Below, piece after piece: positions 3,994 to 52,037 of a stretch of DNA of 64,000 nucleotides. Below the pieces are notes generated by a model that was not told the DNA's origin, ran no database searches, and worked only from the letters and a program-made list of their open reading frames with translations. The stretch spans positions 7,226,001 to 7,290,000 of the forward strand of contig NZ_JAQFIL010000001.1 of NCBI RefSeq assembly GCF_029504655.1, written 5' to 3'. Positions within the stretch are counted from its first letter, which is position 1, and the number at the start of each line of letters is the position of its first letter. The translations under genes and the position numbers were made by a program. The stretch is from Catalinimonas alkaloidigena. GTDB taxonomy: Bacteria; Bacteroidota; Bacteroidia; Cytophagales; Cyclobacteriaceae.

Positions 3994-6021
3994 TTGACTT
4001 TCTCAGGAACAACAAAAATAATCTTACGAAAATCTACAGCTGCTGAGTGGCAAGCTGCAAACACGGTGCTTGATAGCGGTGAAGCAGGATATGAAACAGA
4101 TTCAGGAAAACTAAAAATTGGGGATGGTACTACAGCTTGGAATTCACTCTCATATCTCACTGACATTCCAGACAACTCGATTACAAATGCAATGCTGCAA
4201 AGCGGATCAGTTTCCGCTGCAATTCTTGCAACTAATGCAGTATCAAGTAGCAAGATTCAAACAGATGCAATCAGTACAGGAAAGATTCAAGATGCAGCAA
4301 TCACTGAGCAAAAACTTAGTGCTGATGTAGTTACAAAGTTGAATCAGACAGGAAGTACTTATACAGGTTTTGATTCTGATTTTGCTGCAAAAGATACAGA
4401 CGATTTAGCGGAAGGTAGTGTAAATAAATATCTACTCGATAACTCTGTAAGCACTGCAAAGATTCTCGATGATTCAGTAATAGAAAGTAAGCTTTCTTCA
4501 GATGTTCGCACAAAACTGAATGATATATCAACATCAGCAGGGTATACTTCAGGAATTACTACAGATATAACAATCACTAGCGGAAACTCATCTACGTATC
4601 ACAATAAGATTCTTAAGCTTACTAACAGTTCTGACATTATAATAACAGTTAGTGAAGGATTAGATGAAGATTTTAATTTTTGGCTTGATAAAGTATCTGG
4701 TACTGGTGAAGTATTTTTTGATTTTTCAGCAGTCACAATTGAAGACAATATCAATCATCTGAAAATAGATGAGAATGGTAAGGCAATTGCAGGAATAAGA
4801 GCAATTTCAGCAGATACATACGGCTATGTAAAAGGATCTGACTTCATAACTAATACAGCACCTGTAGCATCAAATGTAATCATATCAGGGAATATACAGG
4901 AAGGTGAAGTAGTAACTATTCAAGCTGATATTACTGATGCTGAAAATGATCCACTTGGTACTCATATATATGAGTTAAGCACATATGATAATGATGGAAA
5001 TGATGCACCTGTACTTGCTACAAAAAGTGTTGTATCTACTTCACAATCTCATCAACTAGCAGCATCAGGTTTAGCAGATAAAATACTGGGTGGTAAAATA
5101 ACACCTGTAGCAACTGAGGGAATCAAAACAGGTACTACTGTAAGTTCTCCTTATTATGTCATAAACAGTTCAGCACCTTCCCTGTGGCTTCCTTCAGCAG
5201 ATTCAGGAACTACAAAAATTTGGCTTACATCTCTAGCAGGAACATACAGTAACCAAGATACCCAGAACCCTACGCAAAGTGTGGTAGATGGTGGTGGATC
5301 TGGAATTGTTCAAAGGTGGGCTTCACAGGTAGGTAATTATTCAGGATTAGAAACTGTAGATGCACCTTCATTAGTATCATACGGTTCTACACGTGCTGTA
5401 TATTTCAATAATCAGGACTTCCTGAATTTTGGGAATGTGTTTGATTCAATCGTGAATCAGCAAACCGCAGGTGATCACTGGGCACTGATTTTTATAGGTA
5501 GAATTGTTACAGCACTTCCTAACAATAAAATTCTTACAAAGCAAAACGGAACAAGTGCAGGTACATCCCTAAGACTAAACAGTAACAGAAGAAAATTGAG
5601 TTTGGCAGATGGTGAAGCAAATTGGTTAACACGTCAAAATAATTCACCTGACAACATCGCTCCTGCAAATTATTGTACAGTGTTCAGGCTTCAGCCTGGA
5701 GCAGCAGCGATAGAAGACAGAGCAAGAATCTTAGATGGAGGATATGATGCAGGCAGCAATGCAGCAGGTACGACTAATAACGGATCAGGATTAAGTTCTG
5801 GAGGTGCTTCTACTGCTGATTTAATAATCGGAGGTGGTGGTGATATAGATGTGCTGGGAATGGAATGGATACTAGCACATAATCCTACAGATGAATATTT
5901 ACGCAAATGTGAAAGTCTTGTTCATCGTCACGGAATCCAGAATTCAATTTATAGAAACGGTACAGCAGCTACTACATTAAATACAGGACACCCTTACCTG
6001 TCAGGACAAGCTACAGTGTAA
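3994..6021 (+). CDS. Phage tail fibre / receptor-binding protein
   Basis: A 675-residue protein starting at TTG, with the purine-rich stretch GAAAGG seven bases upstream; no in-frame ATG lies just before it. Residues 1-56 match the N-terminal module of many phage tail fibres (an RKSTAAEWQAAN-like start, then GEAGYETDSGKLKIGDGTTAW), which attaches fibres to the tail. Residues 60-135 hold short SITNAMLQSGSVS-like repeats typical of fibre shafts. About 290-400 resemble an Ig-like domain, and 400-665 look like a concanavalin-type lectin fold. The gene is followed with a 1-base overlap (TAATG) by a tailspike-like enzyme. It probably binds a cell-surface glycan. The absence of head genes in view leaves open whether the element makes its own particle. 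Confidence 0.75.
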   Translation: MTFSGTTKIILRKSTAAEWQAANTVLDSGEAGYETDSGKLKIGDGTTAWNSLSYLTDIPDNSITNAMLQSGSVSAAILATNAVSSSKIQTDAISTGKIQDAAITEQKLSADVVTKLNQTGSTYTGFDSDFAAKDTDDLAEGSVNKYLLDNSVSTAKILDDSVIESKLSSDVRTKLNDISTSAGYTSGITTDITITSGNSSTYHNKILKLTNSSDIIITVSEGLDEDFNFWLDKVSGTGEVFFDFSAVTIEDNINHLKIDENGKAIAGIRAISADTYGYVKGSDFITNTAPVASNVIISGNIQEGEVVTIQADITDAENDPLGTHIYELSTYDNDGNDAPVLATKSVVSTSQSHQLAASGLADKILGGKITPVATEGIKTGTTVSSPYYVINSSAPSLWLPSADSGTTKIWLTSLAGTYSNQDTQNPTQSVVDGGGSGIVQRWASQVGNYSGLETVDAPSLVSYGSTRAVYFNNQDFLNFGNVFDSIVNQQTAGDHWALIFIGRIVTALPNNKILTKQNGTSAGTSLRLNSNRRKLSLADGEANWLTRQNNSPDNIAPANYCTVFRLQPGAAAIEDRARILDGGYDAGSNAAGTTNNGSGLSSGGASTADLIIGGGGDIDVLGMEWILAHNPTDEYLRKCESLVHRHGIQNSIYRNGTAATTLNTGHPYLSGQATV

Positions 6022-32691: not shown

Positions 32692-33117
32692 TTAGTGGTT
32701 ACAGGTTTTACAGATGCCACTTAGTGTGTAATTAACTTTATGAACAGAAAAATTATCAGACACTTTTACTTTAGGCACTTTTACATCTTCCAGACAGTAA
32801 GTCTGCTGACATTCTTCACAGATGAAATGAGCATGTTTCTCTGTATGCTGCTCATCCGGGCAATGCTTCCCGCATAATGCGTATTTGGTGCCTTGTGCGT
32901 CTTCAGAGGCACGGTGTAAAATACCATGTTCTTCAAAAGAGTTCAATGCTCTATATACTGTAACCCGGTCATGCTCTGTAGTCATCTTAGCCAAAATATC
33001 ACTTGCGGAAAGCGCAAAATCATTATCCAGGAAAAACCCCAGAATTTCCATTCTTATGGGAGTTTTCTTCAATCCATGCGCACGTAATAGGTCGCCTAGC
33101 AGTCCTTTATTGTCCAT
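32692..33117 (-). CDS. Fur family regulator (Zur candidate)
   Basis: This 141-residue protein has the Fur layout. Residues 1-80 form a winged helix with the recognition segment DRVTVYRALNSFEEHGI. The dimerisation/metal domain has HAHFICEECQQTYC. Two CxxC pairs (Cys100/Cys103 and Cys136/Cys139) make a structural zinc site, and His residues near 85-97 and 126 suit regulatory metal binding. The C-terminal NYTLSGICKTC is typical of Zur-like members. It is downstream of a second Fur paralogue in a zinc-type operon, 154 bp away, so it may have its own promoter. A Zur role is inferred from neighbours. Confidence 0.8.
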   Translation of the reverse strand: MDNKGLLGDLLRAHGLKKTPIRMEILGFFLDNDFALSASDILAKMTTEHDRVTVYRALNSFEEHGILHRASEDAQGTKYALCGKHCPDEQHTEKHAHFICEECQQTYCLEDVKVPKVKVSDNFSVHKVNYTLSGICKTCNH

Positions 33118-33271: not shown

Positions 33272-33694
33272 CTATGAATGATGGTTTCGCCTACATTGCA
33301 TGCATATACCCTTCATCAATAAGGGCATTTCTTCTATTTCAAACTGATTTAAGGAATGAAGATATTCATCTGGTAGGGTGGGCAAGCATACTATCTTTCC
33401 ACAATGCTTACAATGTAGATGAGGGTGTATCTGATGATTGCAATGATGCGCCTGATGATACACATACATAGCTTTACCATGCTGATTTATTATTTTCATC
33501 AAGATGTGAGCATCTACAAACATGTTTAACGATCTGTATATGGTGACACGGTCCATCTGAAAATAAGCTTCTAAACCATTTAAAGTATAGGCCTTGGGTT
33601 GTGAAATCAGCAACTGAAGCAAAGCAATTCGCTTGTCAGTTGATCGTATGCCATTGCTTTTCAGAAGTTGGATAGCTTGCCTGGCAGCGTTCAT
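33272..33694 (-). CDS. Second Fur family regulator
   Basis: A 140-residue paralogue. Its winged helix includes MDRVTIYRSLNMFVDAHI. Two CxxC pairs are at Cys95/Cys98 and Cys131/Cys134, with a His-rich stretch YHQAHHCNHQIHPHLH (79-94) that would form the regulatory metal site. It starts one base after the folE stop codon, so it is co-transcribed with folE, the COG0523 gene and the MerC-like gene. A feedback role at the palindromes of that promoter is likely. Whether this or the neighbouring paralogue is the true zinc sensor cannot be decided here. Confidence 0.8.
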   Translation of the reverse strand: MNAARQAIQLLKSNGIRSTDKRIALLQLLISQPKAYTLNGLEAYFQMDRVTIYRSLNMFVDAHILMKIINQHGKAMYVYHQAHHCNHQIHPHLHCKHCGKIVCLPTLPDEYLHSLNQFEIEEMPLLMKGICMQCRRNHHS

Positions 33695-33695
33695 C

Positions 33696-34370
33696 TTAAC
33701 CGATCATTTTGTGAAATTCATCTCGCATCTCTTTATCGGAGAAGGCGCCTCCGTATTCTATCGTTGTCGTTCTGCTGGTAGTATCTTTCACCCCTCTTGA
33801 GGAGACACACAGATGTTCAGCTTCTATAAGCACAATCACATCTTCGGTTTGTAAACACGCTTGTAGCTCCTTATAAATCTGTAAAGTCATGCGCTCCTGT
33901 ACCTGGGGTCTTTTACCGTAATATTCTACCAGACGGTTAATTTTGGAAAGGCCAATGACTTTTCCATGAGAAACATACCCCACATGGGCTTTACCTACAA
34001 TGGGTAAAAAATGATGTTCACAGGCAGAATAGAAAGTGATGTCTTTTTCTACCAACATTTTACTATACTGATACTTGTTATCAAATACAGACACAAAGGG
34101 TTTATTTTCGGGATTCAGCCCGCTGAAAATTTCCTCAACGTACATTTTAGCCACCCTATATGGGGTTCCCTTCAGGCTATCATCCCTAAGGTCCAACCCC
34201 AGCTCTTCCATGATGCCCTCAAAAAGTTTAGTGATATTTTCTATTTTTTGGCTGTTGGGCTTTTGAAATGCATCAGCACGAAGAGGAGTTTCTACAGAGG
34301 TCATCAGATGTTGATCTCCTGCAATTTCAAAAGCTTCTTTTTCGGTTTTTACCACTTGATTATTATTCAT
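33696..34370 (-). CDS. folE: GTP cyclohydrolase I (type IA)
   Basis: A 224-residue enzyme catalysing GTP to 7,8-dihydroneopterin triphosphate, the first step of folate and pterin synthesis. Zinc ligands are visible: Cys117 and His120 in SACEHHF and Cys188 in HLCVSSRG. The catalytic core continues through KINRLVEYYGKRPQVQERMT and ends at SRTTTIEYGGAF. The N-terminus is about 40 residues longer than the catalytic minimum. It is the zinc-requiring form, not the zinc-independent FolE2 commonly induced by Zur. It lies directly after a COG0523 GTPase gene, a known candidate zinc chaperone family, and directly before a Fur gene. Confidence 0.92.
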   Translation of the reverse strand: MNNNQVVKTEKEAFEIAGDQHLMTSVETPLRADAFQKPNSQKIENITKLFEGIMEELGLDLRDDSLKGTPYRVAKMYVEEIFSGLNPENKPFVSVFDNKYQYSKMLVEKDITFYSACEHHFLPIVGKAHVGYVSHGKVIGLSKINRLVEYYGKRPQVQERMTLQIYKELQACLQTEDVIVLIEAEHLCVSSRGVKDTTSRTTTIEYGGAFSDKEMRDEFHKMIG

Positions 34371-34414: not shown

Positions 34415-35620
34415 CTAGATGGGGACCCAATCAGGAAAAGGGTCTTTAAAAGAATGGCCGGACTGGGCCATCAACCACTCTTCTTCAGTACACAGGCAAG
34501 CTTCCAATTCCGCAGTGATAAGATCCTGATCCAGATGTATACCGATGATGACTAGCTCATTCATACGGTCACCGAATACGCCATCCCATTTTTGCTCTAT
34601 TTCTTTTTTTCTTTCCTGAAACAAAGGATGACTGATTCTATCCAGAAAGGACAAACTGACCCACCAGACGCCTGCCGGTTCTGCGCGTAAAGAACCACCC
34701 GCCTGACTCCAATTGAAAGCCTGGTCTGAGCGGGTTGCCAGCCAGAACAGCCCTTTGCTACGGATAATATTGGCACTCCATCCTCCTTGAATTAAATTCC
34801 AGAACCTTTGGGGATGGAAAGGCATACGGCTGCGGTACACAAACGAAGATATGCCATACTCTTCAGTTTCAGGAGTATGTTCATTTTCCAGTTCTTTGAT
34901 CCATCCCGCCGCTCCGGCTGCTTTTTCAAAGTCAAATTTGTGGGTATTGAGAACACGCTCCAGAGCAACATTTCCATTGATTGTAGGAATTATGTCTGTC
35001 GTGGAATTCAGTTTTCTCAGTATCCCCTTCACCACATTGAGCTGCTCCTGATCTATGAGGTCAGTTTTGTTTAAAATAATAACATCGGCAAACTCAATCT
35101 GATCAGTGAGTAAGTTCACAATGGTACGCTGATCGTTAGGATCATCCTCATTGAGATTTCTGTCCTGCAGCGTTTCTGTACTACCAAAGTCTTTGAGAAA
35201 ATTTAATGCGTCTACCACGGTGACCATGGTATCCAGCCGGGAAAAACGAGACAAGTCAATGCCCGTAAGCTCATCTACATAAGTGAAGGTTTGTGCCACT
35301 GGTATAGGCTCGGAGATACCTGTACTTTCTATCACCAGATAATCAAAACGTTCTTCTTTGGCGAGTTGCTCTACTTCTACCAGAAGGTCTTCCCGCAGGG
35401 TACAGCAGATACAGCCATTAGACATTTCCACCAGCTTCTCATCGGTACGAGAGAGCGTATTTTCATTTTTCACGAGCTGAGCATCAATATTGACTTCGCT
35501 CATATCATTGACGATAACGGCCACTTTCATACTATGTTTTTTGTGCAGTATGTGGTTTAAAAGGGTGGTTTTACCTGCTCCCAGAAAGCCGCTGAGCACA
35601 GTGACAGGTATTTTTTTCAT
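34415..35620 (-). CDS. COG0523 family GTPase (CobW/ZigA-like), putative zinc chaperone
   Basis: A 401-residue G3E-family GTPase. The P-loop is GFLGAGKTT (11-19), the metal-binding motif is GCICC (Cys70, Cys72, Cys73), and the guanine-specificity motif is NKTD near residue 190. The C-terminal domain (from about 285) holds aromatic-rich segments usual in the family. Members hand zinc or cobalt to client enzymes under limitation. It lies between a MerC-like membrane protein gene and the zinc enzyme folE in one operon whose promoter has two palindromes, so a zinc-starvation role with FolE as client is plausible. That is inference. Confidence 0.88.
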
Positions 35621-35650: not shown

Positions 35651-36055
35651 TTAAACAGCTTGCTTATTTCTGGTTTGAGATGACCGGGCGAGCTTCCAAT
35701 TAACTAAATGCGCCAGTGCGACAGTTGTCGCTCCCAGAGCGGTGAATAGGATTTCCGCCCAGGCATTAGGAAATGTATGCCCCAGGAAGATGAATGCAAA
35801 GCCTGAAAGCACAATCCAGAAGGGGCTAAATTTCCTATGGTGTCTGAGGTATCCGTGTATCAGAGAAAGTGTAGCGATCAGCAGGCTGATTGCAATAATG
35901 CTATTTTCCAGCCAGGGATCCTGCAAAAACTCCAGATTGGCTAAAGGTGCTAATGCCAGCAAAAATGGTAAAATACCGCAATGGATAGCACAGAGAAGCG
36001 AAACAGAAAGTCCTATATGATCCAGAGAAACTTTGAATAATTGATTTTTGGTCAT
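35651..36055 (-). CDS. MerC domain membrane protein
   Basis: A 134-residue protein with four hydrophobic helices and the motif CAIHCG (about 22-27) characteristic of the MerC family, whose best-known member carries mercury. It is the first gene of the operon with COG0523, folE and fur. A His/Arg-rich loop (HGYLRHHRKF) sits between helices 2 and 3. In Bacteroidetes many MerC homologues lie outside mercury operons, and here the zinc-type context points to zinc or another divalent metal. The upstream palindromes at 36072-36086 and 36110-36124 would control it. Confidence 0.8.
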   Translation of the reverse strand: MTKNQLFKVSLDHIGLSVSLLCAIHCGILPFLLALAPLANLEFLQDPWLENSIIAISLLIATLSLIHGYLRHHRKFSPFWIVLSGFAFIFLGHTFPNAWAEILFTALGATTVALAHLVNWKLARSSQTRNKQAV

Positions 36056-36071: not shown

Positions 36072-36124
36072 TGCAACAGAGTTGCAAATATAGAATCTTA
36101 ATTTTTTATTGCAACATAGTTGCG
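36072..36124. promoter_or_regulatory. Two Zur/Fur-like palindromes in a divergent promoter
   Basis: TGCAACAGAGTTGCA (36072-36086) and TGCAACATAGTTGCG (36110-36124) are 15-bp palindromes of form YGCAA-N5-TTGCR, 38 bp apart from start to start. They lie between the divergent MerC-like (start 36055) and ABC ATPase (start 36169) genes. Related sites occur upstream of the His-rich gene and the truncated receptor. Confidence 0.8.
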
Positions 36125-36168
36125 TTTATATTTTATGATTTAGTTCTTATTCAAGATTCTGATACATT

Positions 36169-36795
36169 ATGTTTAGCACTGCATCCTTAAAGTTTGCTTA
36201 CCATACTGCTCCGCCATTTCATTTTCCTGATATAAGGCTGGTGGATGGTGAACATTTACTGATCTTGGGTGAGTCCGGAATAGGCAAAACCACCATGCTT
36301 CACCTGATGGCAGGGATATTAAAGGCACAGTCGGGAGCCATTGAAGTGGATGGAACCAATATCTGCACCTTATCTTCTCAGAAGCTGGACCGTTATCGGG
36401 GGCAGCACATAGGATTGATTTTTCAACGCCCTCATTTTATACATGCTTTATCGCTTCAGGAAAACCTGAGTCTGATACAACACCTGGGAGGCGTTTCCAA
36501 AGACAGCAAGCGCATCAAACATGTACTGGATCGTCTGGGTATCGGGCACAAACTGCATCAAAAACCGCATCAGTTGAGTCAGGGAGAGCAGCAGCGGGCG
36601 GCAATTGCGATGGCCATTGTCAATCAGCCTTCACTCATACTGGCCGATGAACCTACTTCCAGCCTGGATGATAAAAACTGTTTTAAAGTGGCAGCATTGC
36701 TGAAAGAACAGGCTACCGCCACTGGCGCTCATCTGATCATCATTACCCATGATCAACGTCTGAAGACCCTATTTCAAAAGTCAATTACCTTATGA
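36169..36795 (+). CDS. ABC transporter ATP-binding protein (LolD/MacB type)
   Basis: A 208-residue ATPase: Walker A GESGIGKTT (about 36-44), signature LSQGEQQRA, Walker B LILADEPTSSLDD and the switch His in IITHD. Its stop overlaps the start of the permease gene (ATGA). The first gene right of the divergent Zur-type promoter, it probably energises the FtsX-type permease next to it. The sequence class (lipoprotein-release/MacB-like) is not a classical ZnuC zinc importer. Confidence 0.88.
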   Translation: MFSTASLKFAYHTAPPFHFPDIRLVDGEHLLILGESGIGKTTMLHLMAGILKAQSGAIEVDGTNICTLSSQKLDRYRGQHIGLIFQRPHFIHALSLQENLSLIQHLGGVSKDSKRIKHVLDRLGIGHKLHQKPHQLSQGEQQRAAIAMAIVNQPSLILADEPTSSLDDKNCFKVAALLKEQATATGAHLIIITHDQRLKTLFQKSITL

Positions 36796-38018
36796 ATATC
36801 ACGAAATTAAGTGTAAAGAATATGCTCAGCAAACCTCTCAGCACCAGTATGAGCCTGATACTACTTACACTGGGGGTGGGGATGATTTCTTTGCTGATCC
36901 AGATTAACCATCATATTGAAGAGCAGATGAAAAAGAATGTAAGGGGAATTGATATGGTGGTAGGAGCCAAAGGAAGTCCGTTACAGCTTATTTTATCAGC
37001 CGTATTTCATATGGATGCCCCTACCGGAAATATCAGTATGCATGAAGCCGAAGAGCTGATAAAACATCCTCTTATCAAGTCAGGTATTCCTCTTTCCTAT
37101 GGAGACAGTTATCAGGGGTATAGAATTGTAGGTACAGATCGGCAGTATCCTGAGCTGTATGGAGCACAGCTACAAGAAGGGCGTCTCTGGCAGGAAGCCT
37201 TTGAGGTAAGCCTGGGGGCTACAGTTGCCGAAACATTGGACTTAGGTATTGGAGATACTTTTGCCGGAGCGCATGGCCTGGCTGAAGGTGGCGAAACCCA
37301 TGAGGGTCATCTTTATGAAGTGGTTGGCATATTCGGCTATACTAATTCTGTGCTGGACCAGTTAATTCTCACGGCTACCGAAAGTGTCTGGGATGTGCAC
37401 CATCATGAGGAAGAAGCGCATCAGGAAACAGAAGAGGCCGGTCATGATCACGAAGAAGAACATGAGCAGGAGAAAGAAATTACGGCCATGCTGATCAACT
37501 TTCGCAACCCAATGGGCATGATACAGATGCCTCGTAGAGTCAATGAAGATACCCAGATGCAGGCAGCTCTCCCTGCTTTTGAGATCAACCGCCTGTTCAG
37601 TCTGATGGGAGTAGGCATAGACACACTGAATATGATCGCTTTGGTCATTATGGGCGTTTCAGGGATCAGTGTATTCATCAGTCTGTACAGTGCCCTCAAA
37701 GACCGGCAATACGAAATGGCCCTGATGAGAGCCTATGGCGCTTCCCGAGGGCAATTGTTGTTCGTAGTATTACAGGAAGGGCTGCTGCTTTCCCTGCTTG
37801 GCTTTGTACTAGGAATGCTTTTCAGCAGAGTGGGGTTGCTTCTGGTTTCCGCTTTTATGCAGGAAGCTTACCACTATCGCTTTTCCGGGGCCTCTCTCAT
37901 GGCCGCTGAATGGTGGCTGTTGCTGGTGGCTATGGGGATCGGGCTGATCGCTTCCATCATTCCTGCCTGGCAGGCTTCTTCTATTAACATTTCTAAAACT
38001 TTATCTCATGCGCACTAA
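36792..38018 (+). CDS. FtsX-type ABC permease with histidine-rich periplasmic loop
   Basis: A 408-residue protein with an N-terminal helix (about 20-40), a large periplasmic domain and three C-terminal helices (about 275-400), as in MacB/LolC-type permeases. Within the periplasmic part, residues 200-226 form a His/Glu-rich stretch (VHHHEEEAHQETEEAGHDHE) that could bind several metal ions. The ATGA overlap with the ATPase and an 11-bp overlap with the next gene show a tight operon. It resembles the Zur-regulated Zrg-type ABC systems described in Vibrio by gene content, and transport direction and substrate are not evident. Confidence 0.85.
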   Translation: MNITKLSVKNMLSKPLSTSMSLILLTLGVGMISLLIQINHHIEEQMKKNVRGIDMVVGAKGSPLQLILSAVFHMDAPTGNISMHEAEELIKHPLIKSGIPLSYGDSYQGYRIVGTDRQYPELYGAQLQEGRLWQEAFEVSLGATVAETLDLGIGDTFAGAHGLAEGGETHEGHLYEVVGIFGYTNSVLDQLILTATESVWDVHHHEEEAHQETEEAGHDHEEEHEQEKEITAMLINFRNPMGMIQMPRRVNEDTQMQAALPAFEINRLFSLMGVGIDTLNMIALVIMGVSGISVFISLYSALKDRQYEMALMRAYGASRGQLLFVVLQEGLLLSLLGFVLGMLFSRVGLLLVSAFMQEAYHYRFSGASLMAAEWWLLLVAMGIGLIASIIPAWQASSINISKTLSHAH

Positions 38019-38457
38019 AATGATCATCGTGATGATGTTTATGTTTAGCACCATCCACGTTTTTTCTCAATCTAAAATCAACTGGAGAGTGCTTGCCAAC
38101 ATAGAGTATGTGGAAAGATACGTAGCGGCTGAGGACTTCTATGGCTATCTTCCCGAATTTAGTGATGAGCTAAAAGCCCTGGAGGGAAAAGAAGTTTCTA
38201 TCAAAGGTTTTATGCTTCCTATAGATCCTGATAACAATATGTTTCTTCTTTCGCAGAATCCTTTTGCTTCTTGCTTTTTTTGCGGAGGAGGAGGGCCGGA
38301 GTCAGTGGTTGAGTTAAATTTAAAGCCCGGTCATCCCAATTTCCGCATGGATCAGGTGGTGACTATGAAGGGTAAACTTAGGTTGAACAACGAAGATTTT
38401 GAACAAATGATGTATATATTGGATGAAGCTGAAGTAGTAGAAATCCCTGAATACTAA
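38008..38457 (+). CDS. Secreted small protein with CFFCGGGGPE motif (DUF3299-like)
   Basis: A 149-residue protein with a signal peptide (about 1-21, ending VFSQ) and a compact beta domain. The motif CFFCGGGGPES (about 89-99) supplies two conserved cysteines, and LEGKEVSIKGFMLP and VVTMKGKLRLNNED strands surround it. This resembles the DUF3299-type partner of Zur-linked ABC transporters. Its start overlaps the permease gene by 11 bp, so it is co-translated. A periplasmic metal-binding or folding-partner role for the transporter is likely but unproven. Confidence 0.7.
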   Translation: MRTKMIIVMMFMFSTIHVFSQSKINWRVLANIEYVERYVAAEDFYGYLPEFSDELKALEGKEVSIKGFMLPIDPDNNMFLLSQNPFASCFFCGGGGPESVVELNLKPGHPNFRMDQVVTMKGKLRLNNEDFEQMMYILDEAEVVEIPEY

Positions 38458-38548
38458 ATTTCATACACTACATAATAAGCGAATGACCAAATGATTTTTC
38501 CAAGTTGTCATTTAGATATGCGAATTATGTAGAAATGAACTTACCGAT

Positions 38549-39025
38549 CTACTCTATTTTGATGCTTATCCCTCGTATGGTTTGCCATCCTTCCTCATCT
38601 GTCAGTCGAATCATGAAGTGGTAATCTCCGCTATCCACATCTTCAGGAATCTCCATCTCAAATTCTGCTACATATTCACGCTGCCCCTCCGGAATGGGAT
38701 AGTTTTGTATGAAAAGAAAGGGATTCTCCGCCTCTTTCACCGGCTCCATATCACAGTCGTTGACTTCCGTACTGTGGGTATGATGGTCAAAATTATGATG
38801 GATGTCAATGCTGAATGATCCCAGTTGAACATTGTCGGTAAACCTGGCTTTGAAAGTAAAGGTTTCTCCCTTTGTCAAAATGCTACACTGTTGCGGAAAA
38901 GTTTCTGCAAAATCCGCATCTATTACCGGATATTCTGTGTCTATCTCTTCCTGGTACTGGCAACTGCTCAGTAGAAACAGTCCAGGCAATAGACTATAGA
39001 TCAATAGGTTTCTGAGTAAGTTCAT
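38549..39025 (-). CDS. DUF4625 lipoprotein, single domain (158 aa)
   Basis: The lipobox LSSC (Cys at about residue 22) follows a short signal peptide. The single DUF4625-like domain shows FTDNVQLGSFSIDIHHNFDHH (about 62-82), a dense His/Asp cluster likely to coordinate metal, and closes with YHFMIRLTDEEGWQ, the recurring last strands. It is the last gene of the TonB receptor operon. Length fits the family's shorter members. A role as periplasmic or surface metal-binding partner of the receptor is inferred. Confidence 0.75.
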   Translation of the reverse strand: MNLLRNLLIYSLLPGLFLLSSCQYQEEIDTEYPVIDADFAETFPQQCSILTKGETFTFKARFTDNVQLGSFSIDIHHNFDHHTHSTEVNDCDMEPVKEAENPFLFIQNYPIPEGQREYVAEFEMEIPEDVDSGDYHFMIRLTDEEGWQTIRGISIKIE

Positions 39026-39105
39026 TTTTCTTAATGCTTATGTAATAAGATGTTGATAAGCAAGAAGTAAAGGCACCGTGGCCCATACTTCTTGTAATGC
39101 AACTA

Positions 39106-40056
39106 TTAAAATCCTTCTATAGTAACTCCCAAATAATGATATACGCTTATGTTATATGTGGAATTGGTGTACACCACACCAAAGTAATATTCCCCATTTT
39201 CCCAGGCTTTTTCACCGTCAATAGGATTAGATTCCGGAGCGTTGTTATCAACTGATGCACCTATTGTAAATTCTGGTGAAGGACGAATAAATCCTCCCTG
39301 GCCGTCGAATATAACATTACTAAAGTAATCTACATCTTCTTCATTTTCATGTTGAAAAACATCATAGACAATCACTTTTGAAAAATCAATATCATCTACA
39401 ATTCTTGGAAGATGGTCTGCAGATTTCTTGACAAACAGAAGGTACATTGTTCCATCTCCTTTCACATTTTTGATTTGTGCGGAAGATTTAAGGGTATCCC
39501 CTTGAGCATACGTTACATCTTCCGGGTTTTCGAGTGATTCATTCACATACTGATAAGGTCCATCTTTTATAAAGAAGTCCCATAAATACAAATAGGGATC
39601 AACCGGAAGATTTGCAGGGTCAATCAGGTTTACTTCATAGGTTTCTTCCAGTTTTGTTCCATTTTCATCGGTTATAGTGATGATAAAATCAAACTTACCT
39701 TCTGGGGCATCTTCAGGAATATCAAAATGTTTGTGAATGGTACTGTTTTTAAGCCCTTTAAATTCATCCCAGGCAATCTCAAAGGACCAGTCATGAGTGT
39801 ACGTCTCGTTTTCAATGGGATTGATATTGATTTGTACCTTATCAATTGTGCCTCCTGCTACAACTTCCGCATTAAGATGAAAATCTCGACCGATTACGCC
39901 AATGCCATTGTTGCCGGAACCAATCTCAACTTCATCAATACTGGGCATAGTAGCCGATGGTTCATCGTCATCAGAACAAGCGGTTACCAACAAAAGGGAC
40001 ACTACCCAAAAGGGCAGGATTAATTTTTCAAAGGCAATGGTTAGTTTCTTTTTCAT
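39106..40056 (-). CDS. DUF4625 protein with extra C-terminal domain (316 aa)
   Basis: A lipoprotein signal (lipobox VTAC) precedes the DUF4625 domain: IDKVQININPIENETYTHDW, then HKHFDIPEDAPEGKFDFII and TDENG. Residues 150-316 form a second, unrelated beta-rich domain. The His/Asp-rich strand turns match those of the neighbouring paralogues. It sits third after the TonB receptor, with 107 bp to the preceding gene and 80 bp to the following one. Metal binding is inferred from the His positions and the operon. Confidence 0.7.
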   Translation of the reverse strand: MKKKLTIAFEKLILPFWVVSLLLVTACSDDDEPSATMPSIDEVEIGSGNNGIGVIGRDFHLNAEVVAGGTIDKVQININPIENETYTHDWSFEIAWDEFKGLKNSTIHKHFDIPEDAPEGKFDFIITITDENGTKLEETYEVNLIDPANLPVDPYLYLWDFFIKDGPYQYVNESLENPEDVTYAQGDTLKSSAQIKNVKGDGTMYLLFVKKSADHLPRIVDDIDFSKVIVYDVFQHENEEDVDYFSNVIFDGQGGFIRPSPEFTIGASVDNNAPESNPIDGEKAWENGEYYFGVVYTNSTYNISVYHYLGVTIEGF

Positions 40057-40163
40057 TTATTTTATGTATCATGTTGAATTAAAATTCCAGGAAGGGAATC
40101 TAAAAGGTATAGCACCAGCACCGCCGTGCCTTTCAGCAGGCGGGTGGACTAAAAGTTCATGTA

Positions 40164-40973
40164 TCAGGAAGCAGTAACTTCTATATGTGATTCAAACTCC
40201 TTCGTATTTCCTTCTTCATCTTCTATGGTGAAAATAATATGGTACTCACCGGCAGGAGCATTAGCCGGTATATCAATATGCTCATGAAATTCTACCTCTG
40301 TTTCCCCATGATAGCCTTCTTCAAACTCATTTTCATAATGCCACTCTTCTTCGCCTTCTCCTACAGTAATACCATCTACATGAATATCCACAATGACATG
40401 ATGAACGCCATGTACCGCATTGATCATAAACTCTGCATGCATGTCGCTGCCACGTGCTACTGTCTCGTCTACTGAAACATCGCTGTAGGCAATCACATCC
40501 ATGATCTCCAGTTCTCCTTCAGTTTCCGTACTATTTCCTGCTTCATCAGTAACTTTAAGCGTAATATGGTATTCCCCTGCGGGGATATTGGCCGGGATAT
40601 CTACATGCTCATGAAAAGTAGGGTTGATAACCTGATAAGCAACATCATCAAAAATCTGCTCAAAGTCCCACTCTTCTTCGCCTTCTGCCACAGTAAGGTC
40701 GTGCCCATGTATAGAAACAGTAATGCTACTTACAGTAGCTTCTGCCATAATTTCTGCTTCCATATGAATGTCAGATCCTTTGTAAGCTACCTGGCCGGTA
40801 CCGTGTTGACTTCCTTCGCCAAATTCAAAATTAGAAATCACCGGAGCCATAGGTGTAGGTTCATCATCTTCACTACAGGACACTAAAAATGCGAATACTG
40901 AAGAGAGGAGCATAGCTCTCAGGACTACTGAGAATTGCAGGTTTTTAACTGTGTGTTTGTTCTTTTTTAGCAT
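40164..40973 (-). CDS. DUF4625 lipoprotein with internal duplication (269 aa)
   Basis: The lipobox VSC (about residue 32) follows a signal peptide. Two tandem DUF4625 repeats, about 40-155 and 158-265, share a pattern: a (V/I)xxHGH or DIHVDG strand, then VxEGEEEW, then FHEH(V/I)DIPAN and AGEYHI. Each repeat has six to eight His. The gene starts two bases after the receptor stop codon, so coupling is very tight. The duplicated His-rich motifs suggest multi-metal binding on the outer-membrane or periplasmic side. Confidence 0.75.
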   Translation of the reverse strand: MLKKNKHTVKNLQFSVVLRAMLLSSVFAFLVSCSEDDEPTPMAPVISNFEFGEGSQHGTGQVAYKGSDIHMEAEIMAEATVSSITVSIHGHDLTVAEGEEEWDFEQIFDDVAYQVINPTFHEHVDIPANIPAGEYHITLKVTDEAGNSTETEGELEIMDVIAYSDVSVDETVARGSDMHAEFMINAVHGVHHVIVDIHVDGITVGEGEEEWHYENEFEEGYHGETEVEFHEHIDIPANAPAGEYHIIFTIEDEEGNTKEFESHIEVTAS

Positions 40974-40975
40974 AG

Positions 40976-43381
40976 TTATTTGTGTTTAATTGTAAAAGGT
41001 ATTTTCAAAGACAAAATGATATTTCTACCGGCCTCGGGCAGCCCGATCAGCCGGTAAAAACTGGTATGATTCATATAGCTGGTATTGAGCAGGTTTTGCA
41101 CCTGCAGATTGATGGTAACAGGTGTAGTATTCAGATATACCTCAGCGCCTGCCTGCACATTGAGCAGTTGAAAGCCTGGTGTTTTTTTCTCAGGCGGCAC
41201 AATATTGTCTTGCCGGGAGGTGAGGCGATAGTCAACAGAGAAAAATGGATTTTGCACAGTACCGTTAAGTTGGGGCGACCAACTCAGGTTAAACAAAGCC
41301 GATGGAGGTGGAGAAAAAGGAAGGGTATAGCCCCTTTTATCGCCTGACATTTGCAGCGCATACAGGTATTCACCCAAAAATTCAAAGCGCAGGCTTTTAG
41401 TAAGATTCCCTGTAAGCTGTATTTCCCCCCCGTAGCGTACCACTCTGCTCTGTGTATATTCAAAGACCTGATTTCCCGCTCCATAGAGATAATCATATTC
41501 AGCAGTGGGATTGAGGTAGATGTAATTAGAAAAATAATTGAAGAAAGGCGTTAAAGATACTGACCAATCCTGATCTGTCCAGCTCAGGCCCAGATCTGCC
41601 TGATAAGACCGTTCCGGGTCCAGGTCGGTATTGCCCCGTTCGTAGCTGAAATAATGATAATTCACACCATTGGCACCCAGTTCTTTGGCAATAGGCATCC
41701 TGAAACTTTTGCCAAGGTTAGCTTTCAAATCAAATTTATCTTGGTTGTAATTCATTCCGGCTGACCATACCACACTATTGAACTCACGAGTAAGGTCATT
41801 GGCCCTGACAACATTGAGGGAAACAGTTTCGCCATTTATTTCTGCATCTGAAGTAAACCAGTCCTGATAATGAAACATGCTGATATGGCCAAAGTCATAG
41901 CGCAAGGCAGCGTGAAACAACAAATTTTCTTTCCATTGATACTTATCATATACAAAGGCTCCCAGCGTAGTCTGACGGAAGGCAGGTACCAGAAAACCCC
42001 ATCCGCCAATGGTATTGTCCTGATGTTCTGCATTCAGACCCATGGTCAGGCTATGTTTACCTATCCACAGATAATCTCTCAGGTTGGCCGTATAGACTTG
42101 CTTATCAAACTCTCTTTCCAAATCCTGAGGTATGTTCGTTTCCTCCGGATAGGTAGGTGGCATGTAACCGTGGTTGACGTATTGATTAAACTCCTGACGG
42201 AAGTTGTGCTGATAGCCCAGTTCCGTTTCCAGCAGGTGACCGTTTAGGTGAAATGTACTTTTGTTGATGAGCTTAAGATGGTTGACCTGCTGCCAGGGGT
42301 ACAATATGTCACGTCCGGATTTGTCATGCAGTTCGGTATCCACCTGTCTGGGTTCCAGGCCATGGGCGTTGGCAAAAAAACCGCTTTTGCTATGGATATG
42401 GCTGATGTAAAAAATAGATCGCAGGCTATCACGGACAAAACCTGTATTCAGGTGGAGGTTAGTTTCCTGCCCTGCTGAGTTGCGCAGTTGATTTTCATGC
42501 AGGTCTACGGCAAAGTCATACACATAGACCCGCTCGGTAGGCACCCGGTAATCCCCATAATCCTGATACGTCATGCGGGTGTCAAAAAACCAGGCATCAT
42601 TTCGTCCATACAGGTTGATGGAAGTTCCGAATAGCGCATTGTTGCTTTTGCCTACCACATCCACTGTCCCGCCCAGCGATTGAGAGGGAGGCACTGGTTC
42701 AGGCTTGATATCTATCGCCCCACCGATAGCATCAGAACCATAAACAAAAGAAGCCGCACCTTTGATGACTTCTGCCTGATGCACCGCAAACTGATCAATC
42801 TCCAAACCATGATCTGCGCCCCACTGCTGGCCTTCGTGCTTTACCCCTTTATCTACCACTACCACTCTGTTGAAGCCAAGCCCCCGAATTAATGGTTTGG
42901 ATTGTCCTGAACCAATGCCGATGATATTGATCCCTGGGAGTCGCTCCATGGATTGCATCAGGCTACCACCTAAGTTTTTCCGGATAAAAGCGTCATTGAC
43001 CAACGCTATGTTAAGTGATTCTTCTTTTTTGAGGCGCTTAAATGGATCGTCTTCCACTACAACTTCATCCAGTTGACGTGAAGAAGTGCTAAGATGAATA
43101 AACACGGGCGCATTCAGGCTGCCTGCCTCAACATCAATGCGCTGAGACGTATAGCCCAGGTGGCTAACAGAGAGGGTATACCTCATTTTGCTGACTCCTG
43201 AGAAGCTAAATTCTCCTCGGGCATTACTCGTGGTGATTTTGTTTCCCGGAGAAAGTCTGAGGGCAGCGTCTTCTACCGGACGCTCTTGTTCGTCAAGAAC
43301 TACCCCCTCAATGCGCACAGCCTGACCTGATGCCACTACAACAATACCCGATAGCAACATCACTAAAAAGAATTTAAACAT
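40976..43381 (-). CDS. TonB-dependent receptor (ZnuD-like)
   Basis: An 801-residue outer-membrane receptor. A signal peptide (1-20) precedes a carboxypeptidase-regulatory-like domain (about 22-100). The plug (about 120-235) contains IGSGQSKPLIRGLGFNRVVV and EGQQWGADHG, a block seen in zinc-receptor (ZnuD-type) plugs. A 22-strand barrel follows, ending with a family-type final segment (LSLKIPFTIKHK). It is expressed with a His-rich small protein upstream and three DUF4625 proteins downstream from a promoter with a Zur-type palindrome. Import of zinc or a zinc complex is the best inference. No substrate can be read directly. Confidence 0.85.
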   Translation of the reverse strand: MFKFFLVMLLSGIVVVASGQAVRIEGVVLDEQERPVEDAALRLSPGNKITTSNARGEFSFSGVSKMRYTLSVSHLGYTSQRIDVEAGSLNAPVFIHLSTSSRQLDEVVVEDDPFKRLKKEESLNIALVNDAFIRKNLGGSLMQSMERLPGINIIGIGSGQSKPLIRGLGFNRVVVVDKGVKHEGQQWGADHGLEIDQFAVHQAEVIKGAASFVYGSDAIGGAIDIKPEPVPPSQSLGGTVDVVGKSNNALFGTSINLYGRNDAWFFDTRMTYQDYGDYRVPTERVYVYDFAVDLHENQLRNSAGQETNLHLNTGFVRDSLRSIFYISHIHSKSGFFANAHGLEPRQVDTELHDKSGRDILYPWQQVNHLKLINKSTFHLNGHLLETELGYQHNFRQEFNQYVNHGYMPPTYPEETNIPQDLEREFDKQVYTANLRDYLWIGKHSLTMGLNAEHQDNTIGGWGFLVPAFRQTTLGAFVYDKYQWKENLLFHAALRYDFGHISMFHYQDWFTSDAEINGETVSLNVVRANDLTREFNSVVWSAGMNYNQDKFDLKANLGKSFRMPIAKELGANGVNYHYFSYERGNTDLDPERSYQADLGLSWTDQDWSVSLTPFFNYFSNYIYLNPTAEYDYLYGAGNQVFEYTQSRVVRYGGEIQLTGNLTKSLRFEFLGEYLYALQMSGDKRGYTLPFSPPPSALFNLSWSPQLNGTVQNPFFSVDYRLTSRQDNIVPPEKKTPGFQLLNVQAGAEVYLNTTPVTINLQVQNLLNTSYMNHTSFYRLIGLPEAGRNIILSLKIPFTIKHK

Positions 43382-43535
43382 AGAAATGACTTACCTATAC
43401 AGGTAGAATTGAATAAGCAGGCTTATCCAACCCATTACCATAGGCTTTTCTCGTCCGTTTTTAAAAAATAGTATAGCTATTCCCCTCCAGCACAGGATTG
43501 ATAGCTCATGAATGAATTTTGAGAATGAGAACTAT

Positions 43536-43958
43536 TTAGACAGCGGGAGGGCCGCGGAGAGGCTCCTTAAAATCATTAATTTTAGGAACAGAAAAGTGGT
43601 AAAAAGAATAAAAGCTTTTATTGCTCCATGAAACTAATTCAAGGGCGTAAAAAGTAAACCCTTGATGAGGCTGAACCAGAGCGTCTTGAAATTGACAATT
43701 TTCATTTGTGTCAAAGTGAGCCTGATGCTTACAACCATTGATGGTATCCTGATGATGTACCGTACGATGGCAAGGGTCCAGCTCCAGGCTGGTAGAATGG
43801 TGTTCAGAGGCTGAATGATCGTGAATGATGTTATGAACCAACTCTGGCCCAAGGCTACTACCCAAGTAGACAACCAGCAACAATGCACTCAACACCGATT
43901 GAATACGCAAGCGGATAGCCTTGTTTTGTCTTATGTCACTATGGCCCAGTCTGTTCAT
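43536..43958 (-). CDS. His-rich small protein upstream of the receptor (140 aa)
   Basis: The ATG at 43958 (MNRLGHSD) is preferred to an upstream one at 44057 because a Zur-type palindrome lies between them (43994-44008). The product has a hydrophobic segment (residues about 18-36) followed by a His/Asp/Cys-rich region (NIIHDHSASEHHSTS, then CHRTVHHQ and CKHQAHFD). It ends in EPLRGPPAV, a tail seen in small Bacteroidetes proteins adjacent to metal TonB receptors. A periplasmic metal-binding role is likely. The gap to the receptor gene is 154 bp. Confidence 0.65.
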   Translation of the reverse strand: MNRLGHSDIRQNKAIRLRIQSVLSALLLVVYLGSSLGPELVHNIIHDHSASEHHSTSLELDPCHRTVHHQDTINGCKHQAHFDTNENCQFQDALVQPHQGFTFYALELVSWSNKSFYSFYHFSVPKINDFKEPLRGPPAV

Positions 43959-43993
43959 AACAATCACGCAAGCTAAACACACAAGTCTACAAA

Positions 43994-44008
43994 TGCAACA
44001 AAATTGCA
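43994..44008. promoter_or_regulatory. Zur/Fur-like palindrome upstream of the receptor operon
   Basis: TGCAACAAAATTGCA fits YGCAA-N5-TTGCR with perfect TGCAA/TTGCA arms. It lies 35 bp upstream of the chosen start of the His-rich gene, on the promoter side of the receptor operon. Confidence 0.7.
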
Positions 44009-44146
44009 GTTGTGTTCTGTTATTTTTACAGATATCTTTCAATAAAAACCTAAGCATTCTGAGTAGCTAATTCTAAATTGATTGGACAAGAGTTTTTAAC
44101 AAGTGAGCCCAAAAATCCTATCTCTTACCCTGAGGTTATTTTTATA

Positions 44147-44179
44147 AAATTTAAACGCAAATTACTTGCGTTTAAATTT
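44147..44179. promoter_or_regulatory. Extended palindrome containing a Zur-like site
   Basis: A 14-bp perfect inverted repeat (AAATTTAAACGCAA and TTGCGTTTAAATTT) is separated by ATTAC. Its core, CGCAAATTACTTGCG (44156-44170), fits YGCAA-N5-TTGCR. It ends about 38 bp before the likely ATG (44217) of a truncated receptor gene. Confidence 0.75.
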
Positions 44180-44216
44180 TATCATTATATTCGCAACCTT
44201 ATTGCTTTTATCTGAT

Positions 44217-44771
44217 ATGTGTTTCCAACCAACCTTCCTCTTAATCATTGCCAGTGGCTTATGTTATGGGCAAGCTGCCTCTGTATCCGGGAGTGTGTAT
44301 TCAGAAAATGGAGAAGCGATACCCGGGGTTTACGTTCAACTCAATGGTAAGCAAGCTACAGTTACCGATGAAAAGGGGCTGTTCAGCTTCAAAAACCTAA
44401 AATCCGACGAGTATGCTATCGTAGCCTCCTGTGTGGGGTTCCAGGCAATGCAGAAAACCATTCAGCTAAAACAAGGGGAAGCCTTGATGGTCAAATTTAT
44501 CCTTAAAGATGATATTACACAGTTGAATGAGGTGACCGTTAGGGGGAAATCAGAAGCTCGTGAATTAAGAGAGAGTACGACAAGTGTTACAGTGCTTGAG
44601 ACCAGGAAGCTCTACGCTCAGAGTAATACTACCAGCGATGTGATCAAGCAAATTTCCGGAGTGAACGTCCGTCAAACCGGTGGTTTTGGGAGCGATGCGG
44701 AAGTGTATATTAACGGGATGTCAGGAAAACAGCAAATACTTTTTTCGGTCAAAGCGATCGGCGAAGCCTGA
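44217..44771 (+). pseudogene. Truncated TonB-dependent receptor (N-terminal part)
   Basis: The start at ATG 44217 gives a clean signal peptide (MCFQPTFLLIIASGLCYGQA). It is preferred to a TTG at 44166 that lies inside an operator palindrome. A carboxypeptidase-regulatory-like domain (about 20-100) and the start of a plug (LNEVTVRGKSEAREL, SDVIKQISGVNVRQTGG) are normal up to VYINGMSGKQ. There the expected plug continuation is lost and about 13 unrelated codons follow before a stop. The barrel is missing altogether. The upstream Zur-type palindrome shows that it once belonged to the same regulon. Confidence 0.8.
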
Positions 44772-44981
44772 GGAGATCAGTGCCGAGATACCGGCACTAA
44801 ATGCGTAAACGGATGCCACTAAGCCAAACCGGGCGGTGCTGAGGGAAAAAGCATTGAGCAGGGTACTGCTCAGGGCAGACAATAGCATAAAATCCGGCAC
44901 TACCGTAAATAATAGGCCACCCAGTCCCAGCAGCACCAGGCGCTGATATGCAGTAAAGGGTACTATAGCGGTGGTACTCAT
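44727..44981 (-). pseudogene. Truncated MFS transporter (N-terminal part)
   Basis: The frame encodes the first two to three helices of a major-facilitator transporter: a signal-anchor helix with LVLLGLGGLLFTVVPDFML, then VASVYAFSAGISALI and the loop motif GFADRFDRKKYLL, the conserved motif A between TM2 and TM3. The coding sequence then runs into the truncated receptor and stops. It begins six bases after the upstream regulator gene, as if in one operon. A normal protein would have about 400 residues; this has 86. Confidence 0.75.
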
Positions 44982-51626: not shown

Positions 51627-52037
51627 CTATGACTTCGTGTCCTGCTTCCAAGTGACTGCTAGATAAATAATTATTAAACCGGTACTTATCTCAAAGAAGC
51701 TAAAGAACATATAGTGAAGTGTACCCCCCATAGTCACCGTAAAGGCTTGAATTGAAGTCGTAATGATGCCTGCAACAATATTGAAATATTTGTTTAGTCT
51801 GAAAGTTAAGTACCTAGACAGGACAATCATGATCATAGGAATTTGCATCACAACGGAGAAAGCTAATAAAAACTCTTCAGTTATCTTCATGCCACCTACG
51901 TCACCAGATAAAAATGCTTCTAAGTAACTGGAAAGGTGTAAAGTAAACACATCACAATAGATATAATTTAGTGTTAGGTAAATCCAAAGCAGAGATAATA
52001 GATTCTTACGTTTTCCATCCCATTCAAAAATTTTCAT
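51627..52037 (-). CDS. Small four-helix membrane protein (136 aa)
   Basis: The start at 52037 (MKIFEWDGKRK) is preferred to 52070, because the preceding codons look like leader sequence. Four hydrophobic helices separate short polar loops, including YCDVFTLHLSSYLEAFLSG between the first two and MGGTLHYMFFS before the last. This is the pattern of a DUF6326-like family of unknown function. No signal peptide apart from the first helix. The next gene in transcription order is separated by more than 400 bp. Confidence 0.6.
   Translation of the reverse strand: MKIFEWDGKRKNLLSLLWIYLTLNYIYCDVFTLHLSSYLEAFLSGDVGGMKITEEFLLAFSVVMQIPMIMIVLSRYLTFRLNKYFNIVAGIITTSIQAFTVTMGGTLHYMFFSFFEISTGLIIIYLAVTWKQDTKS

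Follow-up and report, generated by a model that had tools for sequence, protein, structure and literature searches.

The stretch considered here, hereafter the window, comprises 64,000 nucleotides of the Catalinimonas alkaloidigena genome (contig NZ_JAQFIL010000001.1, positions 7,226,001 to 7,290,000) and carries three operons of metal-linked genes preceded by copies of a 15-bp palindrome. One operon encodes a MerC-domain membrane protein, a COG0523 GTPase, GTP cyclohydrolase I (folE) and a Fur-family protein (Fur B), with the gene of a second Fur-family protein (Fur A) nearby. Another, on the opposite strand, encodes an ABC transporter ATPase, an FtsX/MacB-type permease and a small protein, and the third encodes a His/Cys-rich small protein, a TonB-dependent receptor and three DUF4625 proteins (Table 1). 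An earlier account made from the DNA letters alone, called here the sequence-only reading, had described this gene order, the two fur genes in the cluster and four copies of the palindrome, and all of these are found as it gave them. We consider it highly probable that three of the palindromes are operators of a Zur-type repressor, and that the receptor operon is subject to a probable second layer of control by a metal-sensing, ribosome-stalling leader peptide. Published work is cited by PMC identifier.

Table 1. Features of the locus, with positions counted within the window.
Feature	Position	Strand	Remarks
Fur-family protein A	32692..33117	-	
MerC/COG0523/folE/fur operon	36055-33272	-	
Fur-family protein B	33272..33694	-	1 bp after folE
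folE, GTP cyclohydrolase I	33696..34370	-	PF01227
COG0523 GTPase	34415..35620	-	near ZigA zinc metallochaperone model; NF038288, 575.7 bits, cut-off 600, full model length
MerC-domain membrane protein	35651..36055	-	first gene of operon; Pfam PF03203, 93.3 bits
Zur-type palindrome TGCAACAGAGTTGCA	36072..36086		overlaps minus-strand -7 element of MerC operon promoter
-7 element TATATTTG	36085..36092	-	TAnnTTTG consensus; MerC operon; overlaps palindrome 36072
Second palindrome TGCAACATAGTTGCG	36110..36124		38 bp from 36072 site; minus-strand TTG at -33 position
ABC transporter ATPase	36169..36795	+	LolD/Zrg-like
FtsX/MacB-type permease	36792..38018	+	His-rich segment
Small protein, weakly DUF3299-like	38008..38457	+	CFFCGGGGPES motif; 16.7 bits, cut-off 22
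Small ORF/TonB receptor/three DUF4625 operon	43958-38549	-	
Three DUF4625 proteins	38549-39025, 39106-40056, 40164-40973	-	
TonB-dependent receptor	40976..43381	-	haem-receptor/ZnuD-like
Leader-receptor gap	43382..43535	-	154 nt, stop of leader to receptor start
Candidate ribosome-arrest leader of TonB receptor operon	43536..43958	-	140 aa, His/Cys-rich, ends LRGPPAV
Palindrome TGCAACAAAATTGCA	43994..44008		35 bp before leader ATG
Fourth 15-mer CGCAAATTACTTGCG	44156..44170		centre of 17-pair hairpin 44144-44182; doubtful
Truncated TonB receptor	44166..44771	+	carboxypeptidase-like domain, plug positions 2-59 of 107, no barrel

The palindrome was searched in a loose form, the 15-mer YGCAAN5TTGCR, and in a strict form, TGCAAY-N3-RTTGCA (TGCAAYNNNRTTGCA), with the reversed pattern as the control. 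Four exact 15-mers occur in the window against 0.35 expected (the mean of 100 shuffles, of which none reached four and the largest held two). When one mismatch is allowed, the excess in the window is no longer clear (12 against 9.16 expected, with 21 shuffles reaching 12), so that it is the exact form that carries the signal. One-mismatch sites in the genome (45 against 16 in the control), most of the extra ones unexamined, were kept out of the regulon content; one such site, TGCAACAATATTGAA, stands at 51771-51785 of the window. Across the 7.9-Mb genome the loose 15-mer is found at 20 places against 9 for the control, and is thus by itself a loose definition, while the strict form is found at 7 places against 1. 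All seven strict sites lie upstream of a gene start, at distances of 16-82 bp. In the window these distances are 16 bp to the MerC gene and 82 bp to the ABC gene, and strict sites stand 18-45 bp before a second MerC gene, a fur/receptor operon, a thioredoxin reductase-like (TrxR-like) gene and three small open reading frames (ORFs), one of which is the leader ORF of the window. The sequence-only reading had named random scatter of the 15-mer in the genome as a refuting condition. This condition fails for the strict motif, which is promoter-proximal throughout; the loose form, as that reading wrote it, stands at the 20 against 9 given above.

The placement of the sites follows the promoter architecture of the phylum. 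Bacteroidota promoters carry TTTG at about -33 and TAnnTTTG at -7, although the -33 motif was not found in Flavobacterium johnsoniae (PMC7366714). Among 46 gene-directed contexts, TAnnTTTG starts at position -6 relative to the palindrome eight times, at +32 to +34 fourteen times and elsewhere eight times, where one -7 element can count for both palindromes of a tandem pair. At these fixed offsets, a single palindrome either lies over the -7 element or provides the -33 position. Palindromes paired within 70 bp of each other are spaced 35-40 bp apart in 15 of 19 cases, which is about the distance between the -33 and -7 positions. The MerC promoter of the window, read on the minus strand, consists of a TTG within the 36110 site, 19 nt and TATATTTG, with the 36110 and 36072 sites at -33 and -7, respectively; at the 43994 promoter the -7 element is degenerate. 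The sequence-only reading began the His-rich ORF at 44057. Its start is most likely 43958, a choice we infer, and the 43994 site then lies upstream of the gene and not within it.

The strict form also exceeds its control in related genomes. In 59 genomes searched as relatives, the present one included, it occurs 240 times against 16, and sites outnumber the control in 53 of them. A phylum sample gave 131 sites against 13 in other orders of the same class (51 genomes) and a weaker excess, 191 against 42, in other classes (186 genomes). The palindrome is therefore common to the order and, more weakly, to much of Bacteroidota. A chance origin of the palindromes was rejected on the window shuffles and on the excess over control in this genome and in the 59 genomes.

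Up to 1.5 kb upstream of the COG0523 and TonB-receptor orthologues, 43 exact 15-mers are found against no reversed control. At least one is present at 17 of 23 COG0523 loci (out of 30, as L080-L086, with weak partial matches, were left out) and at 18 of 30 receptor loci. A census of strict sites covered 84, namely 7 from this genome and 77 of the 233 in relatives, taken from 29 kept loci, two G001 loci (L178, L191) and 40 stretches around further places; places that fall within a COG0523 or receptor locus (L067, L101, L104 and L109 among them) and one of G016 were left out. A gene of a family belonging to the regulon of this genome starts within 120 bp of 34 of the 77 sites in relatives, where one site can count for two families: MerC-like proteins (11), receptors (6), L017-type lipoproteins (5), TrxR-like proteins (4), fur and ABC ATPases (3 each), NosF-like ATPases (2), and DUF3299-like and DUF4625 proteins (1 each). 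MerC-like genes thus head the list of recognised targets in the sampled relatives. A TrxR-like flavoprotein gene, about 5-6 kb past the end of the window (L016:6132-7130, genome 7295131-7296129), has a strict palindrome upstream, and its homologues in G040, G002, G001 and G004 also stand behind the palindrome, which makes it a recurrent and unexplained member of the regulon. In a single case (L257:2648-4327, G004), a strict palindrome precedes a PhoX alkaline phosphatase, perhaps a zinc-sparing enzyme.

The sequence-only reading had placed all four palindromes of the window upstream of metal operons, which holds for 36072, 36110 and 43994 and is insecure for 44156. This last site is the weakest of the four and doubtful as an operator. 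A terminator-like or structural hairpin is slightly more likely than not: it forms the centre of an AT-rich hairpin of 17 pairs, it lacks the TGCAAY core, and three of the four other CGCAA-N5-TTGCG sites of the genome fall inside long ORFs. An operator is favoured by a one-mismatch partner at 44192-44206, whose distance of 36 bp is the tandem-operator spacing, and by the position of the site before a receptor remnant. At 44166-44981, this receptor, cut in the middle of its plug, adjoins an MFS transporter fragment encoded on the opposite strand, and the junction suggests a past deletion or rearrangement.

The first product of the receptor operon resembles a known class of regulatory peptides. 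An R[AG]PP motif near the C-terminus of small exported proteins marks ribosome-arrest leaders (PMC9426467, PMC12992588), which precede TonB-related genes in Gram-negative bacteria generally and whose copper-related forms are described as lacking in Bacteroidota (PMC12992588). CruR of Bordetella, a DUF2946 protein, is the arrest leader of a copper-repressed TonB receptor (PMC9426467) and has a CxxC motif, 45 residues ahead of RAPP, and a gap of 162 bp to the receptor gene (PMC9426467, PMC12992588). The window leader shares with CruR the position of a small ORF heading a TonB-receptor operon and the long gap (154 against 162 nt), and has an N-terminal hydrophobic stretch by eye. Its RGPP, on which the sequence-only reading is silent, stands two residues before the end, where the motif of CruR stands three, and its first cysteine lies 46 residues before the motif while the second is replaced by glutamine, leaving no CxxC. 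Unlike CruR, it has an additional Cys/His cluster, stands behind a Zur-type operator and shows no match to Pfam DUF2946 (PF11162), nor do the six CxxC-bearing leaders compared below. Because the DUF2946 test failed, the window leader was not filed as CruR, although by analogy it probably works like it.

At 5 of the 84 strict sites the palindrome is immediately followed by a leader with R[AG]PP, as compared with 10 of 2079 small ORFs overall, a background that includes the leaders themselves as well as spurious ORFs. The five are those of the window, its G001 orthologue, L020 of this genome, the G026 orthologue of L020 and one in G013. A further leader of this genome (L017) stands behind a relaxed site, and three receptor loci (L102, L108, L116) have an R[AG]PP leader without an exact palindrome; an RGPP ORF at L106, far upstream of the receptor in a GC-rich genome, was set aside as a probable chance occurrence. 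In all nine distinct leaders compared, the motif lies 2-5 residues from the end. The CxxC precedes it by 43-44 residues in six of the six leaders that bear one (43 in L020, 44 in L017), and the L108 leader has no cysteine. A profile of these six, which favours matches with the features of the six, recovered, query members included, 37 proteins at E up to 10, of which 33 lie below 1e-9; R[AG]PP is present in all 37, and a CxxC 42-44 residues before it in 36.

The window leader and its G001 orthologue are 41% identical (64% for the receptors, with a gap of 160 nt in G001). Both keep the first cysteine 46 residues before the motif, have glutamine for the second and hold a common invariant set of Cys/His residues, and their residues 100-133 diverge while LRGPP is kept. 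Searched directly against proteins, the window leader matched itself alone, and a two-row profile of both leaders found three proteins, the two query rows and P0040. This homologue carries much of the Cys/His set of the window leader together with a CELC motif 43 residues before RAPP, and thereby connects the window leader with leaders of the CxxC type; against DUF2946 it scores 14.6 bits (E 0.057, cut-off 23.7).

In the leader-receptor gap, the RGPP codons are predicted to pair with a downstream GGAGGGG run (43376-43560, minus strand), and the gap folds with a z-score of -1.79 (11 of 200 shuffles fold as well). A weak hairpin and a U-run follow the GGAGGGG run. The pairing together with the hairpin and U-run could be an attenuator. 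We rejected the idea that this gap holds a conserved terminator or attenuator, as it folds only weakly better than the shuffles and no structure shared with the G001 gap is seen by eye.

Two explanations of the leader have to be weighed. In the first, whose probability we place somewhat below even, the Zur operator and a nascent His/Cys-rich, metal-sensing leader that stalls at RGPP together constitute a two-tier metal switch. This explanation further suggests that the CruR-type copper site, CxxC, was rebuilt in the lineage of the window into CxFQ with a DPCHRTV-HQD-GC-HQ-H cluster, and that the result may be a zinc sensor; the other leaders of the regulon keep CxxC, so that certain operons may combine the two signals as low zinc AND low copper. 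In the second explanation, to which we give a similar chance below even, the RGPP protein is an ordinary exported metal-binding protein, such as a periplasmic metal chaperone, whose C-terminal motif has no role in stalling. Its richness in His and Cys, with ligands kept between two genomes, would suit such a protein, as would its very few relatives, and the stalling is a prediction from sequence. It is less easily squared with the strong avoidance of RGPP/RAPP in bacterial proteomes and the arrest these motifs induce in tested contexts (PMC12992588), with the position of the motif 2-5 residues from the end of all nine leaders, with the retention of LRGPP beside diverging residues, or with the fixed CxxC spacing in related leaders.

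Two paralogous small ORFs in an MbnP/MauG-like operon (L021:6830-7192 and 5551-5922) end in FFHPPRV and FFHPPRA and are possibly another type of arrest leader. A small metal-rich ORF at L047:1568-1861, which matches DUF6660, ends in WQPPKLA, and a similar one near L013 position 1501, before a gene that resembles an RND metal pump by eye, ends in FLKPPRS.

With respect to the effector, zinc is suggested by the ZigA-like COG0523 protein, the Zrg-like MacB/LolD transporter and a Zur-type cysteine of Fur A, and the box lies on promoters of zinc-uptake-type and COG0523 genes, as expected of Zur, save at the 30 ZnuA/TroA-type loci examined. Several findings weigh against the reading as zinc-responsive Zur operators with an arrest leader. 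Exact 15-mers are missing at 12 of the 30 receptor loci and 6 of the 23 COG0523 loci, and the loose 15-mer reaches only about twice its control in the genome, with several of its 20 places inside long ORFs. No gene of the regulon's own families lies within 120 bp of 43 of the 77 strict sites in relatives, and at least two of ten scanned genes behind unmatched strict sites look unrelated; strict sites before the L031 DUF6712 and L033 peptidase M61 genes may be due to chance. Genomes without a Fur A match keep a small excess (mean 1.33 sites), and neither fur gene of the window has its own palindrome within 300 bp. The window leader lacks a DUF2946 match and the second CxxC cysteine. The MbnP/MauG-like operon, which is copper-linked, and the CruR-like leaders of the regulon point to copper as well. 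Finally, none of the 30 ZnuA/TroA-type loci (of 34 matches) carries the palindrome. ZnuA/TroA were accordingly dropped as zinc markers of the regulon, and since a His-rich loop is present in none of the 30, these loci may be manganese systems.

An alternative in which the same Fur-family operators answer to copper or to several metals, as a general metal-scarcity regulon, is improbable. It can draw on a strict site of this genome (L021:7224) that heads the MbnP/MauG-like operon, on the resemblance of the CxxC-R[AG]PP leaders to the copper leader CruR (PMC9426467), on the MerC family among the targets and on the ZnuA/TroA loci just described. Set against these are the near-ZigA COG0523 protein and the Zrg-like transporter, which are both zinc-linked in the literature (PMC2770081, PMC9820375, PMC8248653), and the Zur-type cysteine of Fur A.

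Fur-family genes number at least six in the genome: a Pfam search gave five, and a further one, at 2814849, is that of the fur/receptor operon. Fur A, Fur B and a third protein, Fur D (L019), score 54.7, 32.8 and 35.3 bits against PF01475 (cut-off 23.1), in keeping with a Fur-family fold. They have in common a helix DRVT-[IV]-YR, which in the canonical Fur-like protein E reads SRATVYN. In Fur A, YALC aligns with YVLC of E. coli Zur (4mtd), and most of the wider clade also has this cysteine. The aligned cysteine is lacking in B and D. The Fur protein of the fur/receptor operon of this genome lacks it, though 8 of the 11 members of its clade have it. In E. coli Zur, the position corresponds to Cys88 of the sensor site. 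Fur A is, from sequence, the likeliest zinc sensor in the window and a better candidate than B because B lacks the sensor cysteine. Against the NCBIfam Zur equivalog NF008646 it scores 41.7 bits (cut-off 167), which excludes only close kin of the model seed.

The link between palindrome and Fur family comes from a tree of 69 Fur proteins. Eleven of the genes have a 15-mer near the start, and nine of these fall into one clade with 11 members (support 100/98). In these nine the 15-mer is found from 71 bp upstream to 1 bp downstream of the ORF start used, and by coordinates eight of the nine are followed by a receptor gene (none seen for the ninth, G006). The excess of sites per Mb is 0.81 in the 47 genomes with a Fur A match and 0.31 in the 12 without, uncorrected for kinship and with a p-value that is indicative at most. 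It is therefore very likely, as judged from these associations, that a Zur-type Fur is the regulator of the palindrome. A regulator outside the Fur family, with the fur genes merely among its targets, is most improbable: the bare fur genes of the window and the sites left in genomes without a Fur A match would allow it, but the Fur clade in which nine of the 11 members carry the palindrome upstream and the site numbers that go with the Fur A match speak against it, and no other regulator was noticed behind the palindrome (ten unmatched genes scanned, the others not all annotated). Of the proposal in the sequence-only reading that a Fur protein binds these sites with zinc as effector, the Fur part has thus gained a linkage through the palindrome-bearing clade, and the zinc part continues to lean on gene content and the Zur-type cysteine.

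In the mechanism that we propose, 36072, 36110 and 43994 would serve as operators of a Zur-type repressor. A zinc-bound Fur-family dimer, most likely Fur A (32692) or one of its relatives in this genome, would occupy the -33 and/or -7 element and block transcription, thereby repressing the MerC/ZigA-like/folE/fur, Zrg-like ABC and leader/TonB receptor/DUF4625 operons. At low zinc the repressor would leave, and all three operons would be expressed. In the receptor operon, the His/Cys-rich and probably exported first product, ending in RGPP, would in addition stall the ribosome that makes it; metal binding to the nascent leader chain would alter this stalling and with it receptor expression.

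As a Zur regulon the system is of a known kind. Zur regulons of other phyla (PMC6103462) share a Fur-family repressor whose palindromic box lies on the promoter, in some cases as a pair, and COG0523, TonB receptors and ABC zinc uptake as targets. The box here, TGCAAY-N3-RTTGCA, is unlike the E. coli Zur motif TRWNAYRWTATAWYRTNWCA (PMC6103462). It also differs in overlapping the TAnnTTTG/TTTG elements, in having MerC-like proteins as its most frequent recognised target and in being missing from the 30 ZnuA/TroA-type loci examined. The zinc subgroup of COG0523 that includes ZigA (PMC2770081) likewise stands behind a Zur-type site with folE as a neighbour; the neighbour here is of the folE1 type (PF01227, one of two such genes in the genome), and the main text of that paper contains no word beginning with 'bacteroid'. 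Among the open-licence papers listed in the literature searches, none names this box or couples a Zur operator to an arrest leader, and the word zinc is absent from the main text of PMC12992588. The palindrome provides a putative zinc box with a promoter place for an order of Bacteroidota and, more weakly, for much of the phylum, and points to MerC-like proteins as frequent targets. It also connects the presumed zinc control with metal-linked arrest leaders, which have been treated for copper and protein localisation among other roles (PMC9426467, PMC12992588).

Half-sites of TTGCA with N5 between them are also found in the Nur box of Streptomyces, a Fur-family palindrome in the order TTGCA-N5-TGCAA, which is the reverse of the order here. 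No nickel genes were noticed here.

The ABC operon resembles ZrgABCDE of Vibrio (PMC9820375, PMC8248653), a Zur-linked operon of a MacB-like permease, an ATPase and a small exported protein. The MacB-like permease with its ABC ATPase is found in the window. In contrast to Vibrio, the small protein here has a DUF3299-like match under the cut-off, so that this label of the sequence-only reading stands as a weak resemblance. No ZrgA-type binding protein was recognised among the Pfam-scanned window proteins, the genome not having been searched for ZrgA. A PDB search with the DUF3299-like protein gave no match; a homologue is the gene immediately preceding COG0523 in G035 (L058/L069) and, as judged by eye, also at L063. 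The receptor falls below the cut-offs of both the ZnuD model NF038289 (108.9 bits, cut-off 950) and a haemoglobin/transferrin/lactoferrin-type model (110.6 bits, cut-off 323.75). Two of the three consecutive DUF4625 proteins encoded behind it have HxH-DIP-type His motifs.

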